The notes beneath the pieces were generated by a model. That model searched no databases and was not told the origin of the DNA. It saw only the letters and a program-made list of their open reading frames with translations. The position numbers were made by a program, and so were the translations under genes. A DNA stretch of 64,000 nucleotides, taken from contig JARLHL010000064.1 of assembly GCA_031292275.1 (NCBI GenBank), positions 1 to 64,000 on the forward strand, read 5' to 3'. The first letter of the stretch is position 1; each line of letters starts with the position of its first letter. This document shows, piece after piece, positions 45,782 through 53,365 of this stretch. Source of the stretch: Desulfocapsaceae bacterium (GTDB lineage Bacteria > Desulfobacterota > Desulfobulbia > Desulfobulbales > Desulfocapsaceae).

Positions 45782-46732
45782 ATGTATAAAAAAGAAATAA
45801 AGGTCATCGACTGCACGGTCCGTGACGGCGGCCTGATGAACAAATGGCAATTCACGGAAAAATTCGTCCGCAATGTCTACAACGCACTGGCCGACGCCGG
45901 TGTGGACTATATGGAAATCGGCTACCTGAGTTCCAAGGACGCCTTCGACCGCAAGACCCACGGACCGTGGAAGTTCTGTTTTGAGGAGGACCTGCGCACG
46001 ATCATCGGCAATGGGGAAAAGAGGCTCAAACTGTCGGCCATGGCCGATATCGGCCGGATCGAATACGACGATATCCCCCCATGCGATGAAAGCTCGCTGG
46101 ACATGGTCAGGGTTGCCTGCTATGCCCATCAGGTCGATTCGGCCATCGCCCTTGCCCATCATTGCATAGAAAAAGGCTATGAGACCACCATCAACCTGAT
46201 GGCGGTGTCCACTGTCGGCCTCAGGGAGCTCAACGAATGCCTGGAAGACCTGAATAAGAGTCAGGTGCCGATAATTTACCTGGTCGACTCCTTCGGGGCC
46301 TTCTACTCGGAGGACATCGACACCCTGGCCCAGAAATACCAGGAGCGGCTGCCCGGCAAGACCATCGGCGGCCACTTCCACAACAACCAGCAGCTGGCCT
46401 TTGCCAACACCATCTCCGCCATCATCAACGGCGTCAACTTCCTCGACGCGACCCTCTACGGCATAGGCCGGGGGGCCGGAAACTGCCCCCTGGAGCTGCT
46501 CCTCTCCTTCCTGAAAAATCCCAAGTTCAAGGTCAGGCCCATTATCAAATGCATTGAAGAGGAGATCTTCCCCTGGCGGGAAAAGATAGAATGGGGCTAT
46601 TCGGTGCCCTATATGGTGACCGGGGTCATGAACCAGCACCCCCGCACGGCCATGGCAGTGATGGAATCTGACAAAAAAGATCTCATAACCGAGTATTACG
46701 ACTCGATCTGCGGCACGGTCGAGACCCATTGA
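45782..46732 (+). CDS. DRE-TIM aldolase/lyase (HMG-CoA lyase-like)
   Basis: 316 residues. The N-terminal catalytic motif is VIDCTVRDGGL (Arg14, Asp15), and the metal-binding HFHNN lies near residue 200. Both are hallmarks of the DRE-TIM superfamily (isopropylmalate synthase, HMG-CoA lyase, 4-hydroxy-2-oxovalerate aldolase). It lacks the long C-terminal domains of synthases and so is probably a pyruvate-dependent aldolase. The substrate is unknown and no pathway neighbours are nearby. A terminator follows 7 bases after the stop. Confidence 0.82.
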   Translation: MYKKEIKVIDCTVRDGGLMNKWQFTEKFVRNVYNALADAGVDYMEIGYLSSKDAFDRKTHGPWKFCFEEDLRTIIGNGEKRLKLSAMADIGRIEYDDIPPCDESSLDMVRVACYAHQVDSAIALAHHCIEKGYETTINLMAVSTVGLRELNECLEDLNKSQVPIIYLVDSFGAFYSEDIDTLAQKYQERLPGKTIGGHFHNNQQLAFANTISAIINGVNFLDATLYGIGRGAGNCPLELLLSFLKNPKFKVRPIIKCIEEEIFPWREKIEWGYSVPYMVTGVMNQHPRTAMAVMESDKKDLITEYYDSICGTVETH

Positions 46733-46739
46733 CGCAACC

Positions 46740-46772
46740 GGCAGCAGCGGCCCGGCTGCCGCTGCCCTTTTT
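46740..46772 (+). terminator. Rho-independent terminator of the aldolase gene
   Basis: GGCAGC (46740-46745) pairs with GCTGCC (46761-46766) with further GC pairing inside, followed by T5 (46768-46772). Confidence 0.75.
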
Positions 46773-46918: not shown

Positions 46919-48466
46919 ATGAAATCCACTTGGCGCCTTCAGGACATCATCGATCTCGAGTATTTTTTCTATCAGGATCAGGCAGAGAGTACTCCTGAAA
47001 AGCTGCAGGAGATCCGGGAACGGGACAGGTTCATATACCAGGAGGCATGCCGCGGGCATGAGCGCCTGCCTGACCGCAGTCTCCTGCCCGGACTGTGGCT
47101 GCGGGCCCGAAGGCAGCAGGAAGAGGCTGCGGGAAACCGGATCCTGCCGGGACAGCTCAGCCAGGAGATCTATGACAGGACCCAGCTCCTGTTCTGGCTT
47201 GCCGGCCTTCTGATCGGCACAGGCTCGTCCCTGTCCTTCTTTACCTACACGGGGACGGCTCCGCTCAACGTCTTTCATTATCTGGCGGCCTTTGTCTTCC
47301 TTCAGCTGGCGATCCTGCTGCTTTTGATCTGCTCGCTTGCCCTCAGACTGAAAGGCCCCTCGCCACCGCCGTCCCTGATCGCATCCCTTGTGGCCTCTCT
47401 GCTTATCAGACTGTCCCGGACGGCCGCCCGGCGGCTCCTGGCCGAAATCCCGGCCGAGAGGAAGAACGGATTTCAGGCCGTGCTCGGCACGCTGAAGGCA
47501 AAGCGGCAGTATTCAGCCCTGCTCTTCTGGTCGGTTTTCTGGCTCATCCAGCTCTTTGCCGTCGGTTTCAATATGGGAGTGCTGGCCCTGACCCTTTTCA
47601 AAATCGCCTCCACCGACATCGCCTTCGGCTGGCAATCCACCATCCAGTTCAGCGGCGAGGCGGTCTTCCGTCTGGTCCGGTCGCTGGCACTCCCCTGGTC
47701 CTGGTGCCTGGACAGCGGTACGGCCTTCCCCACGCCGGAGCAGATTGAAGGGAGCCGGATCATCCTGAAGGACGGCATCTATCATCTCGCCACCGGCGAT
47801 CTGACCTCCTGGTGGCCCTTTCTCTGTCTGGCCCTGACCGTATATGGCCTCTTGCCCCGGATCCTGCTGCTGGCAACCGCCTGGTTCAGGAGAAAAAGCT
47901 GCCTCGCGGGCCTTACCTTCGATCAGGCCGTATTCGACCGGCTTCTGGTCCGGATGCAGACCCCGCTGGTCTCAAGTCAGGCAAGGCCGGAAGACAGAGG
48001 ACGGGAGGCGGAGTCCGGACCGACGGCTATCCAGCAGCCCCCTGGCCCCGGCACGGGCCTGGTGGCGCTGGTCCCCGACGAGATCTTCGACCGCTGCCAT
48101 GAGACGGAGCTTGCCGCCATCCTTGCCCGAGAGGGAAAGTCGCTGGCCGGCAGAATCAGGATGGGGGAGGACTACGGCTCCGACCGGCAGATCCTGGCAG
48201 ATCTCGCCGCCTCAACGGAACAGAGGGATGTCCTGATCCTGGCTGAGGCCTGGATGCCGCCCATCGCCGACCTGCTGGTCTTCGTCCAGGACCTGCGCCT
48301 GGCCCTGAGGGGAAAGACATTCATCCGAATCGGCCTGCTGGGCAGACCGGATCAGACCACCATCTTCACCCCGGTGGACCCCGCCGCGATGAAGGTATGG
48401 CGACAGAAAACAGCCGCCCTGGGCGATCCCTATCTCGCCGTTGAAAGTCTCGCAGGACAGATTTGA
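46919..48466 (+). CDS. DUF2868 membrane protein
   Basis: 515 residues from the ATG at 46919 (MKSTWRLQDIIDLEYFF). The opening and the multi-helix layout match DUF2868. At least four membrane helices are visible (LLFWLAGLLIGTGSSLSFF, LAAFVFLQLAILLLLICSL, LLFWSVFWLIQLFAVGF, FLCLALTVYGLLPRILLLA), then a cytoplasmic C-terminal region. DUF2868 genes are known neighbours of DUF3482 GTPase genes, as here (49 bp gap). Function is unknown; a GTPase-controlled membrane assembly is a guess. Confidence 0.85.
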   Translation: MKSTWRLQDIIDLEYFFYQDQAESTPEKLQEIRERDRFIYQEACRGHERLPDRSLLPGLWLRARRQQEEAAGNRILPGQLSQEIYDRTQLLFWLAGLLIGTGSSLSFFTYTGTAPLNVFHYLAAFVFLQLAILLLLICSLALRLKGPSPPPSLIASLVASLLIRLSRTAARRLLAEIPAERKNGFQAVLGTLKAKRQYSALLFWSVFWLIQLFAVGFNMGVLALTLFKIASTDIAFGWQSTIQFSGEAVFRLVRSLALPWSWCLDSGTAFPTPEQIEGSRIILKDGIYHLATGDLTSWWPFLCLALTVYGLLPRILLLATAWFRRKSCLAGLTFDQAVFDRLLVRMQTPLVSSQARPEDRGREAESGPTAIQQPPGPGTGLVALVPDEIFDRCHETELAAILAREGKSLAGRIRMGEDYGSDRQILADLAASTEQRDVLILAEAWMPPIADLLVFVQDLRLALRGKTFIRIGLLGRPDQTTIFTPVDPAAMKVWRQKTAALGDPYLAVESLAGQI

Positions 48467-48515
48467 GGTTTTATGATACTCTTCAAATACCCTATAAAGA
48501 TGCCTTCGTGCAGAC

Positions 48516-49970
48516 ATGAACATCAGAGTCTCCCGCCCCCCCCATGATGCCATGATCCCTGAATTCGCCATAATCGGTCACCCCAACGAGGGCAAATCCT
48601 CGGTACTCTCCACTCTCGCCGAAGACGACTCCGTCCGGATCAGTCCAACGCCCGGCGAGACCACGGAGTGCCGCACCTTTCCGGTGGTCATTGACGGCGT
48701 CGAGGTCCTCCGCTTCACCGATACCCCGGGCTTTCAGCACCCCAGGCGGGTGCTGCACGAGCTGCAGCATTTCACCGGCCCCGGCATGATTGGCCGGTTC
48801 AGGGAGACTTTCGCATCGGTAGCCGAACTCCGGCACGACTGCGAGCTCCTGCTGCCGGTGGCCCGGGGCGCCGGGATCATCTATGTGGTCGACGGGTCCC
48901 GTCCCGTAAGAAACATCGACCGGGCAGAGATGGAAATCCTGCGTCTGACCGGCAGACCCCGCATGGCCGTCATCAACTGCAAGGATGAAGGAACCGCTCA
49001 TCTCGGCGACTGGCGGGAAGAATTTCGCAAGACCTTCAACGCCAACCGGATATTCAACGCCCACCGAGCCACCTACGCCGAGCGGATCCTGCTGCTGGAG
49101 GCACTGAAGAATATCGATCAGGACTGGCATGGACCGCTCGACCTGGTGGTGTCCGGCTTCAAGAAGGACTGGGCAGCCCGCAACGACCGGACGGCGGAGC
49201 TGATCCTGAACCTGCTCACCGATTGCCTGACCTTCACGGCCGCCGGAGACCTTGAGGCCGGGATGGACGAGACCGCCCTGAGGGCCCGGCTGGCCCGGAC
49301 CTACGCCGACGCCATCCGGACCAAAGAAAAGAAGACCCACCGGCAGATCCGCGGTCTGTTCAAACACAATATCTTCAACTATGACCTGCCGCCCTGCTCA
49401 ATCCTGCATGCGGACCTTTTCAACGAGAAGACCTGGCAGTTTCTGGGCCTGAGCCGAGGCCAGATGGCCTTGGCCGGAGGCCTGAGCGGGGCCGCGGTGG
49501 GAGCGGGGATCGATATCGCCCACGCCGGTCTGAGCCTGGGCATCTATGCCGCGCTGGGCGGGGCCATCGGCACCGCAGGCGCCCTTCTGGGCGGCAGGAG
49601 CCTGTCCACCAGGGCCCGGCTTTTGGGCGTGGGACTGGGAGGGGAGCAGATGCAGGTGGGCATGGGCGACTCAATCCAGTTCTTCCATATCCTGCTTGAC
49701 CGGGCCCTGCTCTTCTATGCCCATATCATCAACTGGGCCCATGGGCGGCGGGACTATTCCGCAGATCAGAGGCAAACCGGCGCGCCGGATTCCCTGCCTC
49801 AGGGAATCTGCAGCGGTCAATGGCCGGGTGCCTCGCTGAAGGTCTGCCGCGACTATTTTCAGGCCGTCAGAAAGGGGGATGAGGCCAGACAAGACATCCA
49901 GAAAAGGCTCCTGCACAAGATCCTCACAGACACCCTGATGGTGATTTCCTGCGGAGAGACCGCGGACTGA
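48516..49970 (+). CDS. Membrane-associated GTPase (DUF3482 family)
   Basis: 484 residues. G1 is GHPNEGKSS (21-29), G3 is DTPG (near 69) and G4 is NCKDE (near 150), an Era/TrmE-like GTPase domain. The C-terminal part has a glycine-rich hydrophobic region (LAGGLSGAAVGAGIDIAHAG, then GIYAALGGAIGTAGALLGG) that probably sits in the membrane. It follows the DUF2868 gene and precedes rtcB by only 4 bases, so the three are likely one transcript. The role of the GTPase is unknown. Confidence 0.85.
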   Translation: MNIRVSRPPHDAMIPEFAIIGHPNEGKSSVLSTLAEDDSVRISPTPGETTECRTFPVVIDGVEVLRFTDTPGFQHPRRVLHELQHFTGPGMIGRFRETFASVAELRHDCELLLPVARGAGIIYVVDGSRPVRNIDRAEMEILRLTGRPRMAVINCKDEGTAHLGDWREEFRKTFNANRIFNAHRATYAERILLLEALKNIDQDWHGPLDLVVSGFKKDWAARNDRTAELILNLLTDCLTFTAAGDLEAGMDETALRARLARTYADAIRTKEKKTHRQIRGLFKHNIFNYDLPPCSILHADLFNEKTWQFLGLSRGQMALAGGLSGAAVGAGIDIAHAGLSLGIYAALGGAIGTAGALLGGRSLSTRARLLGVGLGGEQMQVGMGDSIQFFHILLDRALLFYAHIINWAHGRRDYSADQRQTGAPDSLPQGICSGQWPGASLKVCRDYFQAVRKGDEARQDIQKRLLHKILTDTLMVISCGETAD

Positions 49971-49974
49971 AGCT

Positions 49975-51150
49975 ATGATCAGGACCATCACCTCAGAAAA
50001 AAAGCCGATCAAGCTGTGGCTGGACGACATTGAGGAGGGGGCCCTGGCCCAGGCCAAGAACCTGGCAAACCTGCCCTTCACCTTCAGGCATGTGGCGATC
50101 ATGGCCGATGCCCACTTGGGCTACGGCATGCCCATCGGCGGTGTTCTGGCCACCGAGGATGTCATTATCCCCAACGCGGTGGGCGCGGATATCGGCTGCG
50201 GGATGTGCGCGGTAAGGACCTCCCTCGACCGGATCCTCCCCGAAGACCTGAAAACGATCATGCGGCGGATCCGGGGCGAGATCCCGGTGGGCTTCAAGCA
50301 CCACAGCCGACCGCAGGACCAGAGCCTGATGCCCCTTGCGCCTGCGGACAAGCCTTCCTCGGGCCTGCCTATGGTTGAGAGGGAATACGAAAACGGCCTG
50401 CGCCAGCTCGGCACCCTGGGAGGCGGCAACCATTTCATCGAGATCCAGCGGGGAGACGACGGGCATATCTGGATCATGATCCATTCGGGCAGCCGCAATA
50501 TCGGCTTCCGGGTGGCGAACCATTACAACAGGCTGGCCATCGATCTGAACGCCAGACACAAATCCGCCGTCCCGTCCGCCTGGCAGCTGGCTCATCTGCC
50601 GTTGTCCTCCGAGACCGGCAGGCAGTACCTGGCCGAAATGCAGTTCTGCGTCGAATTCGCCTTGGCCAACCGACAACTGATGATGGAGCGGATCCAGGAT
50701 ATCTTCGCCTCCGGGTACCCCTTTGCGACCTTTGCCGATCCGGTCAATATTGCCCACAACTATGCCAGGCTGGAGCATCATTTCGGCAGGGAGGTGCTGG
50801 TCCACCGAAAGGGAGCGACCAGCGCCCGGCTGGGGGAAACCGGCATAATCCCCGGCTCCCAGGGGACACGGAGCTGCATCGTCCGCGGCCTGGGCAATGC
50901 CGACAGCTTCACCTCATGCTCACACGGTGCCGGCAGGATAATGGGAAGGAAGCAGGCCCAGCGGCAACTGGACCTGCAGGCAGAGATCAGAAGACTCGAC
51001 GCCCAGGGCGTCATCCATGGAATCAGGGGCAGAAAGGATCTTGACGAGGCCGCAGGCGCCTACAAGGACATCGGCAAGGTCCTGGAGGCCCAGACCGACC
51101 TCATCGAGGTGCTGGTCAATCTGCAGCCCCTGGCGGTGATCAAAGGCTGA
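49975..51150 (+). CDS. rtcB: tRNA-splicing/RNA repair ligase RtcB
   Basis: 391 residues, the shorter bacterial form. The metal-binding motifs DAHLGYGMPIGG and GADIGCGMCA are near 47 and 72, GTLGGGNHFIEI near 147, and the catalytic histidine His317 lies in SCSHGAGRIMG. RtcB joins RNA 2',3'-cyclic phosphate (or 3'-phosphate) ends to 5'-OH ends using GTP and Mn2+. No rtcA or rtcR is adjacent, unlike in E. coli; instead it follows the DUF3482 GTPase gene by 4 bases. Confidence 0.95.
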   Translation: MIRTITSEKKPIKLWLDDIEEGALAQAKNLANLPFTFRHVAIMADAHLGYGMPIGGVLATEDVIIPNAVGADIGCGMCAVRTSLDRILPEDLKTIMRRIRGEIPVGFKHHSRPQDQSLMPLAPADKPSSGLPMVEREYENGLRQLGTLGGGNHFIEIQRGDDGHIWIMIHSGSRNIGFRVANHYNRLAIDLNARHKSAVPSAWQLAHLPLSSETGRQYLAEMQFCVEFALANRQLMMERIQDIFASGYPFATFADPVNIAHNYARLEHHFGREVLVHRKGATSARLGETGIIPGSQGTRSCIVRGLGNADSFTSCSHGAGRIMGRKQAQRQLDLQAEIRRLDAQGVIHGIRGRKDLDEAAGAYKDIGKVLEAQTDLIEVLVNLQPLAVIKG

Positions 51151-51170: not shown

Positions 51171-51806
51171 TTAAGGGGCCAGCCGCTCGATCTTCCAGCC
51201 ATCCCCTGAAGGGGTATAGCAGAAACGGTCGTGGAGCCGGTTCTCGCGCCCCTGCCAGAATTCGATTGCGCTCGGCGCCACTTTAAACCCGCCCCAGAAG
51301 GACGGCAGGGGGATTTTCCCCTCGCCGAACTTGGTCTTCATCTCATGAAACTTCTGCAGCAGCATCTGCCGCGAAGAGAGGGGGTGGCTCTGGCTGGACA
51401 CCCAGGCGGCCACCTGGCTGTCCTTGGGCCGGGACATGAAATAGCGGGCCGAGTCGGCGGTGGAGATACGGCTTGCGATCCCGGAGATACTGACCTGCCT
51501 CTCCAGCTCCAGCCAGACGAAGAGCAGACTGACCCTGGCATTGCCGGAGATTTCAGTGGCCTTTTTGCTGCCGTAATTGGTGAAGAAGACAAAACCGCCG
51601 GCGTCAAAATACTTCAGGAGGACGGTACGCTGGCTGGGCTGCCCCTCGCTGCTGACCGTTGCCAGGACCATCGCAGTGGGATCGGCGATATTGGTTTTTC
51701 TGGCCTGTTCGAACCAGGAACTGAACTGAAGAATCGGATCGGGGTTGAGGGCCTCGCGCTGCAGACCGCCTTTCAGGTAGTCGCGTCGAAAATGACTGAT
51801 ATCCAA
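51171..51806 (-). CDS. pdxH: Pyridoxamine 5'-phosphate oxidase
   Basis: 211 residues. FMN- and substrate-binding features include ATVSSEGQPSQRTVLLKYFDAGGFVFFTNY and the C-terminal FWQGRENRLHDRF motif of PdxH. It oxidises pyridoxine or pyridoxamine phosphate to PLP. I start it at a TTG (51806, protein then begins DISHFRRDYLKGGL after Met) with GAGG 6 bases upstream; a TTG four codons earlier is possible. It converges on rtcB. Confidence 0.9.
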   Translation of the reverse strand: MDISHFRRDYLKGGLQREALNPDPILQFSSWFEQARKTNIADPTAMVLATVSSEGQPSQRTVLLKYFDAGGFVFFTNYGSKKATEISGNARVSLLFVWLELERQVSISGIASRISTADSARYFMSRPKDSQVAAWVSSQSHPLSSRQMLLQKFHEMKTKFGEGKIPLPSFWGGFKVAPSAIEFWQGRENRLHDRFCYTPSGDGWKIERLAP

Positions 51807-51888
51807 AATAAACCTCAAATAACTCCAGGCCTCTCAGGCCAAAACGCAAAGAGGAGAACAAAGGCGGAAATCCCCCCCTGCTCCCCCG

Positions 51889-51950: not shown

Positions 51951-52874
51951 TCAGCCGCCCACGACTTTGACTCCCTCCAGTTTCCAGCTGTCTGTCCCGG
52001 TGGGACGCGCCCAGGTCCATTCTTCCTCAAATTTGACCGGCACGGTCATGGATCCTTCGACCAGGCTGCCCGTCTTGTCGTCCACGGTATAATCAAGCAG
52101 GTTGGCGGAAAAGAGGACGGTGGCGAAATCCTCGTTTCCGTCGACACCCGCATCCACCAGTTCAACCTTGCGGATTGCGATGCTCTCCAGCTTGTTGATA
52201 TGTCCGCGCTGGCGCATCTCGGCAAAACGGGCTTCATATTCGCCGGCCAGCTGTGAGCCGAGAAGATGGCGATAGGAGTTCAGATCCCGGTGCATCCATC
52301 CGGCCTGGACCTGGAAGAAGACATCCGAGGCTATCTCCGTAAAATATTTCGGGTCGAAGGATGGGTCCATCCTGCGGATATCGGCAAGCCCCTGTTCAAG
52401 CCCGCCGGAAGAAACGGCAGAGGGGGGCGGCCCCGAACCGCCGAAAGCACCCGAACCGCCGAAGGATGCCGGACCGCCGTCGCCATACTGATTCTGATTC
52501 GAAAACGGAGGGAATCCCCCTCCGGAAGAACGGTTGGAAAACTTCTTGTAGAGGTAATACCCAATCCCTCCCAGAATCAGAATGGGCAGGATGCCGATTC
52601 CGCCGCCGCCGTGGCCGCCGAACATGGAGCCGAACAGCATCCCGCCCAGGGCCCCGCCCAGAAGCCCTCCTGCCAGTCCGCGGGAAAAGCTGCCGGTCTG
52701 GTTGTTGAGAGGAGGCTGATAGCTGGGGGTGGGAGATTGCCGCGGGGATGGCCGGCTGTAGGATCTTCCGCCCGAACCGGAGCGGGCCTCGGCATACTGC
52801 GCCGACATCCCGGCCTCAAACAGGAAACAGGTCAACAGAACAAGGGCAAGGGGCACTATGTTTTTTATACTCAT
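51951..52874 (-). CDS. Secreted or membrane Tim44-like domain protein
   Basis: 307 residues. The N-terminus (MSIKNIVPLALVLLTCFLFE) is a signal peptide, followed by a Ser/Pro-rich stretch, a very Gly-rich hydrophobic segment (GGLLGGALGGMLFGSMFGG, then GILPILILGGIGYYLYKKF) that should be a membrane helix, and a C-terminal Tim44/TIM44-like domain (QGLADIRRMDPSFDPKYF). Bacterial Tim44-like proteins are common, and their role is poorly known. The start at 52874 has only a weak ribosome site. A terminator follows. Confidence 0.8.
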   Translation of the reverse strand: MSIKNIVPLALVLLTCFLFEAGMSAQYAEARSGSGGRSYSRPSPRQSPTPSYQPPLNNQTGSFSRGLAGGLLGGALGGMLFGSMFGGHGGGGIGILPILILGGIGYYLYKKFSNRSSGGGFPPFSNQNQYGDGGPASFGGSGAFGGSGPPPSAVSSGGLEQGLADIRRMDPSFDPKYFTEIASDVFFQVQAGWMHRDLNSYRHLLGSQLAGEYEARFAEMRQRGHINKLESIAIRKVELVDAGVDGNEDFATVLFSANLLDYTVDDKTGSLVEGSMTVPVKFEEEWTWARPTGTDSWKLEGVKVVGG

Positions 52875-53365
52875 GGTCACTTCTGCAGGGTAAAGGTTGA
52901 TAAACGTATCAAGATAAAGCATCCAAGAAGAAATAGCCATTCACGGGGCACTTGTCATGCACAAAGTGAACAAAAAAGTCAAAATAGCCCATTTTTCCTA
53001 TCCGATTGTTCCGGCAGAAACCGGTCGGCCGGCACCCGCAATGGGGGTTCTGCAGGGATTTTCTTTGCACCGGATTTGACAAAGCCCCTTCTCCCATTAT
53101 AGAATTTTTTCAGCATGCAGAAGATCTTCGATAAATGCAGGAGCGCTGCCCTATGAATCCTTTTACCAGCAGTTCCCAGGAATGCGACAGATCCCTCCCC
53201 TGCTCCTTATCTCTCTTCCACGATAATCAAGCATACACAGGATTCCAGATGGTTTGAACGGCGACTCGTCAGGGGTACATCCGGGCCTTCAGCCAACCAG
53301 CCAGCCTCCGGACTGCACCTCAGGTGACGACGTGCGACAACATATAATAATTTGTGAGGAATCAG
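52875..53365. other. Intergenic region with a long leader for the chemotaxis receptor gene
   Basis: 491 bases. It holds a strong promoter candidate (53076-53103) whose transcript would have a leader of about 250 bases. I found no riboswitch motif in the leader, and no supported gene. A 34-codon open frame (53153) lacks a ribosome site. Confidence 0.5.
53076..53103 (+). promoter_or_regulatory. Candidate sigma-70 promoter upstream of the chemotaxis receptor gene
   Basis: TTGACA (53076-53081), 16-base spacer, TATAGA (53098-53103). It lies 262 bases before the ATG. Confidence 0.55.

Follow-up and report, generated by a model that had tools for sequence, protein, structure and literature searches.

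The DUF2868 and DUF3482 genes are a near-obligate two-gene unit, inherited together, and in the Desulfocapsaceae DNA studied here this unit is followed closely by rtcB, a gene for an RtcB-family RNA ligase. We consider it probable that the two DUF proteins are subunits of one GTP-controlled inner-membrane complex, with rtcB as an independently working neighbour behind the pair. A functional link between RNA repair and the GTPase is not supported, judging from co-occurrence, from the spread of the arrangement and from comparison with a neutral neighbour, the convergent pyridoxamine 5'-phosphate oxidase-like (PNPOx) gene.

Pfam matches and coordinates place DUF2868, DUF3482 and rtcB in the window, the whole stretch of 64,000 nucleotides that was analysed, as the earlier note had claimed (Table 1). 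The gap between the DUF3482 stop (49970) and the rtcB ATG (49975) is 4 bases, and the rtcB start is consistent with relatives, the majority of which likewise encode 391 residues. From spacing and strand, the three genes could be a closely spaced operon-like unit, and this layout makes one transcription unit possible. Between DUF3482 and rtcB, the + strand shows no terminator-like site. Such sites are weak evidence, since the window contained 6 against 5.4 expected in shuffled sequence, and promoter-like and terminator-like sites were about as frequent in the shuffles. Downstream, the order rtcB-PNPOx-Tim44 recurs in relatives in the neighbourhood comparison. Scans of the window for tRNA and Rfam matches gave none, and one short tandem repeat (52432-52479, period 18, 2.7 copies) lies inside the Tim44-like gene; neither result bears on the question.

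Table 1. Features of the DUF2868-DUF3482-rtcB locus, in window coordinates.
Feature	Position	Strand	Remarks
HMGL-like gene	45782-46732	+	upstream of DUF2868
Intrinsic-terminator-like hairpin	46744..46765	+	between HMGL-like gene and DUF2868; 8 pairs, 7 G-C, T-rich tail
DUF2868 protein gene	46919..48466	+	515 aa; PF11067 E=1.9e-58
DUF3482 GTPase gene	48516..49970	+	484 aa; PF11981 E=8.9e-64, MMR_HSR1 2.1e-12
DUF3482 P-loop (G1), GHPNEGKS, residues 21-28	48576..48599	+	8/8 residues invariant in 53 aligned sequences
DUF3482 Gly-rich hydrophobic segment, residues 321-360	49476..49595	+	from hydropathy; predicted membrane contact or insertion
rtcB, RtcB-family RNA ligase	49975..51150	+	391 aa; PF01139 E=1e-107
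PNPOx gene	51171..51818	-	PF01243 and PF10590; convergent with rtcB
Tim44-like-domain gene	51951..52940	-	PF04280 E=8.8e-21; next in rtcB-PNPOx-Tim44 block

The two DUF genes are rarely found apart. Among 144 genomes of the order, DUF3482 occurs in 76 and DUF2868 in 77; both are present in 74, with DUF3482 alone in 2 and DUF2868 alone in 3. A DUF3482 family scan of GTDB relatives, from which the best 80 of 411 were retained, gave a DUF2868 match at 80/80 of the loci fetched from these species genomes, and in nearly all of these best 80 of 411 loci the two genes adjoin. At two loci (L096 and L103), exceptions to the tight spacing, other open reading frames separate them. PF11067 and PF11981 matches stand side by side on one strand in the window, and the pair was found in both Desulfobacterota and Gammaproteobacteria. 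The same two Pfam families are neighbours in Pseudomonas and Thiodictyon. In P. aeruginosa, the hypothetical proteins HP14 (DUF3482) and HP15 (DUF2868) carry consecutive IMG gene numbers (PMC12864544), and on a gammaproteobacterial Thiodictyon plasmid the two genes overlap by one base, with no rtcB after them. A Thiodictyon study lists a DUF2868 protein, the plasmid copy or another, as having higher abundance during the dark period (PMC6413534). The literature excerpts retrieved in our search contain almost nothing on DUF2868 or DUF3482, and those of them that name either family give no function.

The position behind DUF3482 is variable. About a dozen relatives have a PRiA4_ORF3-family gene of about 205-231 residues at the place that rtcB occupies in the window (loci including L033, L037, L039, L040, L043, L049, L053, L061, L065 and L078; the assignment to PF07929 was tested on the L043 copy). 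In the Desulfocapsa-like genomes with loci L067, L074, L076 and L087, the gene closely behind DUF3482 encodes a RecQ-like helicase (about 720 residues; named from reading the sequence and not from a family search) and is another lineage-specific neighbour of the pair.

The DUF3482 protein consists of an Era-like G domain (residues 11-206), a helical region, the Gly-rich hydrophobic segment and a helical C-terminus. In a structure comparison of the predicted model, the G domain matched Era (3iev_A) with Z 17.0 and an rmsd of 3.7 over 170 residues, and profile comparison matched the protein to Der (1mky, E=1.6e-12). A P-loop and a DTPG motif, the latter of the DxxG type found in G domains, are present in 53/53 aligned sequences. 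The G4 element (residues 154-156) reads N-x-K in 53/53 and follows the canonical NKxD pattern in 2/53, so that nucleotide specificity is uncertain; judging from the alignment, the unusual G4 may bear on it. DUF3482 is like Era, EngB (YsxC) and Der in the fold and sequence of the G domain, with P-loop and DTPG intact, but it differs from them in G4, in the DUF3482 region with its Gly-rich segment, and in that it reaches none of the curated NCBIfam cut-offs for Era, Der and EngB (for the Era equivalogs, TIGR00436 gave 32.7 bits vs 116.25 and NF000908 33.7 vs 237). The earlier note had described a GTPase with a hydrophobic C-terminus. The hydrophobic part exists, but it is internal, at about 321-360 of 484, and by hydropathy the last 80 or so residues are hydrophilic. 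In the model (mean pLDDT 78.3), pLDDT is below 50 at residues 323-375, covering most of this segment. An anti-phage defence role was rejected: the sole PADLOC match, a weak one to LeoA (E 4.6e-05), is confined to the P-loop region, and none extends over most of a protein.

For DUF2868, hydropathy predicts transmembrane helices at about residues 85-105, 119-143, 201-225 and 299-320. In the AlphaFold model (mean pLDDT 84.7), long helices coincide with these four hydrophobic stretches, and a C-terminal alpha/beta domain follows. The orientation was derived from the charge bias of the loops: the number of K and R per residue is 0.187 in loop 145-196, vs 0.029 and 0.051 in loops 105-118 and 222-298. 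Loop 145-196 is thus predicted to be cytoplasmic, as are the N-terminus and the C-domain (about 378-515), and the loops at about 105-118 and 222-298 are predicted to be periplasmic. These two predicted periplasmic loops are the most conserved parts of the protein, with mean column conservation of 0.68 and 0.69 vs 0.38-0.46 in the cytoplasmic parts.

The C-domain offers a further reading, which concerns the pair alone and is compatible with the explanation that we favour. If this domain were a degenerate EngB-like GTPase, the pair could be a heterodimer at the membrane, asymmetric in that one G domain is active and the other dead. In the VIA-align comparison of residues 372-515, the stretch 377-515 matched EngB best (1pui_B, Z 9.8, rmsd 3.0, 116 residues), the 50 matches listed also include other EngB/YsxC, Gtr1-Gtr2, RagA-RagC and SR-beta entries, and a P-loop motif is found in just 1 of 54 DUF2868 sequences and missing from the other 53. 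However, ketoreductase, Vps33 and TIR folds trail the EngB match by no more than 1 Z unit, with receiver domains close behind, and a profile comparison of the DUF2868 and DUF3482 alignments found no common domain and no DUF3482 match in the C-domain. Foldseek gave no match for DUF2868 below E 0.001, and PDB sequence relatives were absent beyond one row at E 0.36. The dead G domain is thus suggestive but level with other folds, and we regard the heterodimer, which would resemble the signal recognition particle receptor or Rag/Gtr pairs, as rather unlikely.

The rtcB product carries the motifs GADIGCG at 70, GGGNH at 149, HSGSR at 170, HN at 261 and SHGAGR at 316, which we take to be the metal- and GMP-binding active site. 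With these motifs and its PF01139 match, and aligned to the solved RtcB 1uc2, it belongs to the RtcB ligases. It shares family and motifs with RtcB of the RtcAB RNA repair operon, but in this genome, which is 99.98% complete, RtcA (PF01137), RtcR (PF06956) and archease all gave no match, and with rtcA and rtcR missing the locus is not an RtcA-RtcB-RtcR operon. Nor is it of the RtcB2-PrfH type (release_rtcB), the cut-offs not being reached (TIGR03073, 135.9 bits vs 271.8; PRK09588, 167 vs 407). The statement in the earlier note that RtcB usually sits with rtcA/rtcR fails in this order, where RtcB occurs in 107/144 genomes vs 16/144 for RtcA; archease occurs in 14/144. One relative (G045) has an RtcA match about 100 bases from a second RtcB copy, distinct from the copy behind the pair. 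The archease-RtcB operon likewise has a gene adjoining RtcB; in relatives with archease, the adjoining RtcB is generally a long form of about 490 residues. Among the papers listed in literature searches on RtcB neighbourhoods, RtcB2-PrfH, YcjX/YcjF/DUF697 and glycine-zipper GTPases, nothing pointed to the pair-rtcB arrangement.

The co-occurrence of RtcB with the pair is loose. Both are present in 59 of the 144 genomes, the complete pair only in 15, RtcB only in 48 and neither in 22, which gives p=0.13 in a Fisher test that ignores relatedness and in which absences from draft genomes may be assembly gaps. RtcB is thus lacking in 15 of 74 genomes with the pair, and 48 of the 107 RtcB-bearing genomes do not have the complete pair. 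Near-complete genomes are found on both sides, with the pair but no RtcB in G008, G024, G049 and G075 (99-100% complete) and RtcB but no pair in G022, G034 and G064 (99%).

Adjacency is rarer still. Read by eye from coordinates and then sequence-checked for the fetched loci, rtcB lies directly behind DUF3482 in 11 of the 59 genomes that carry the pair and RtcB (G000, G001, G003, G005, G015, G020, G032, G033, G038, G041 and G047). Synteny confined to this genome would have counted against the proposal of the earlier note; the arrangement recurs in 10 other genomes of several genera (g1, g2, g4 and g14 retain it), all of one family, with gaps of -38 to +56 bases. The distance is about 0.9 kb in G030, G045 and G051 and 3.4 kb in G028, and in the remaining genomes with both, rtcB is farther off or on another contig. 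In a phylum sample of 395 genomes, DUF3482 passed the cut-off in 35, of which 26 do not belong to the order. In the 25 of these 26 that were checked (G454, with a short partial DUF3482 match, was left out), rtcB was near DUF3482 in 0/25, though 23/25 carry RtcB. Within the best 80 of 411 GTDB loci, downstream sequence of 1.5 kb or more was available for 70. The gene immediately after DUF3482 is rtcB in 6 of these, and two further loci have it about 1 kb and 3.4 kb away, which makes 8/70 within 3.5 kb of DUF3482.

The trees point to how the arrangement arose. In a DUF3482 tree of 88 rows, built with a quick method, 11/11 adjacent rows fall inside one 34-row clade (SH-aLRT 99), and this suggests one old juxtaposition of rtcB and the pair, followed by decay, as the simplest account. 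An older pair-rtcB unit may instead have been lost repeatedly, which is a less simple history. The same clade also holds rows in which PRiA4_ORF3 intervenes, rtcB is missing or the pair is elsewhere. A special pair-linked RtcB subfamily was ruled out by the RtcB tree (62 rows), in which the pair-linked RtcBs sit in separate branches among others, with 3 changes. From gene order and trees, a vertically inherited three-gene operon with co-transcription is plausible.

The convergent PNPOx gene served as a control for gene order. It is convergent with rtcB in 29/62 examined RtcB loci, and the pair is directly upstream in 11/62; these loci (60 fetched, the window and L032) were hand-picked to include all adjacent ones and are not a random sample. 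PNPOx follows rtcB in 9/11 loci with the pair directly upstream, in 3/3 with the gap of about 0.9 kb and in 17 without the pair alongside, and rtcB-DUF3482 adjacency is less widely kept than rtcB-PNPOx. The order pseudouridine synthase-rtcB-PNPOx without the pair in between is found in G007, G010, G019, G023 and G037, whereas in G038 and G045 the pair lies between the pseudouridine synthase gene and rtcB-PNPOx, and L033 reads pseudouridine synthase-pair-PRiA4_ORF3-PNPOx with no rtcB. These orders show that the pair, rtcB and PNPOx are each present without the others. Since convergent genes share no transcript, the rtcB-PNPOx block has been conserved without co-expression.

This control bears directly on a purely regulatory coupling, in which the pair and rtcB would be co-transcribed for the same stress with no contact between their products. 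Close spacing, conserved in part of one family, would fit such a coupling, but the arrangement has been lost in most derived members of the clade, with PRiA4_ORF3 or other genes intervening, and PNPOx is kept more widely without a common transcript. We consider the coupling unlikely. That the three genes are one functional system, in which RtcB would partner the membrane GTPase or act as its effector and ligation, for example, would be tethered or gated at the inner membrane, seems clearly improbable to us. The short same-strand gaps in 11 genomes, the lack of a terminator-like site before rtcB, the adjacency across genera and the missing RtcA, RtcR and archease are all as such a system would have it, yet the pair lacks RtcB in 15 genomes and RtcB lacks the complete pair in 48, adjacency was seen in 0/25 genomes checked outside the order, and the clade has members in which the pair has relocated while rtcB stayed with PNPOx. 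The proposal of the earlier note that the locus connects RNA end repair with a membrane GTPase is accordingly not supported: there is no significant association (p=0.13), adjacency among the genomes examined is confined to one family and traces to one DUF3482 clade, and PNPOx is kept more widely. Less probable still is a version in which DUF2868-DUF3482 senses envelope damage and, via GTP, recruits or gates RtcB as its effector at the inner membrane.

We therefore return to a GTP-controlled complex of the two DUF proteins with rtcB as a bystander. DUF3482 would bind and hydrolyse GTP in the cytoplasm and dock on DUF2868 via the Gly-rich segment and the helical C-terminus, and its nucleotide state would switch DUF2868, which would act in the envelope; candidate roles are gating, transport, membrane remodelling and sensing. 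The Era-like G domain, the predicted DUF2868 topology and the conserved loops predicted to be periplasmic together suggest that a GTPase in the cytoplasm acts on a membrane protein facing the envelope. In this explanation, rtcB would be an RNA ligase gene complete in itself, placed behind the pair by a single event in an ancestor of some members of the family; it is probably transcribed together with the pair, yet would function on its own. A point against full neutrality is that rtcB has stayed next to DUF3482, at -38 to +56 bases, in several branches of the DUF3482 clade. Neutral neighbours would seldom persist for so long, and co-expression may therefore have some selective value.

The interesting object at this locus is the uncharacterised DUF2868-DUF3482 pair, rather than its link to RtcB. 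The convergent PNPOx gene offers a simple check on when a short distance between genes says something about function. Keeping the pair, which is the real unit, apart from its lineage-specific neighbour rtcB guides first experiments and avoids a misleading functional label.
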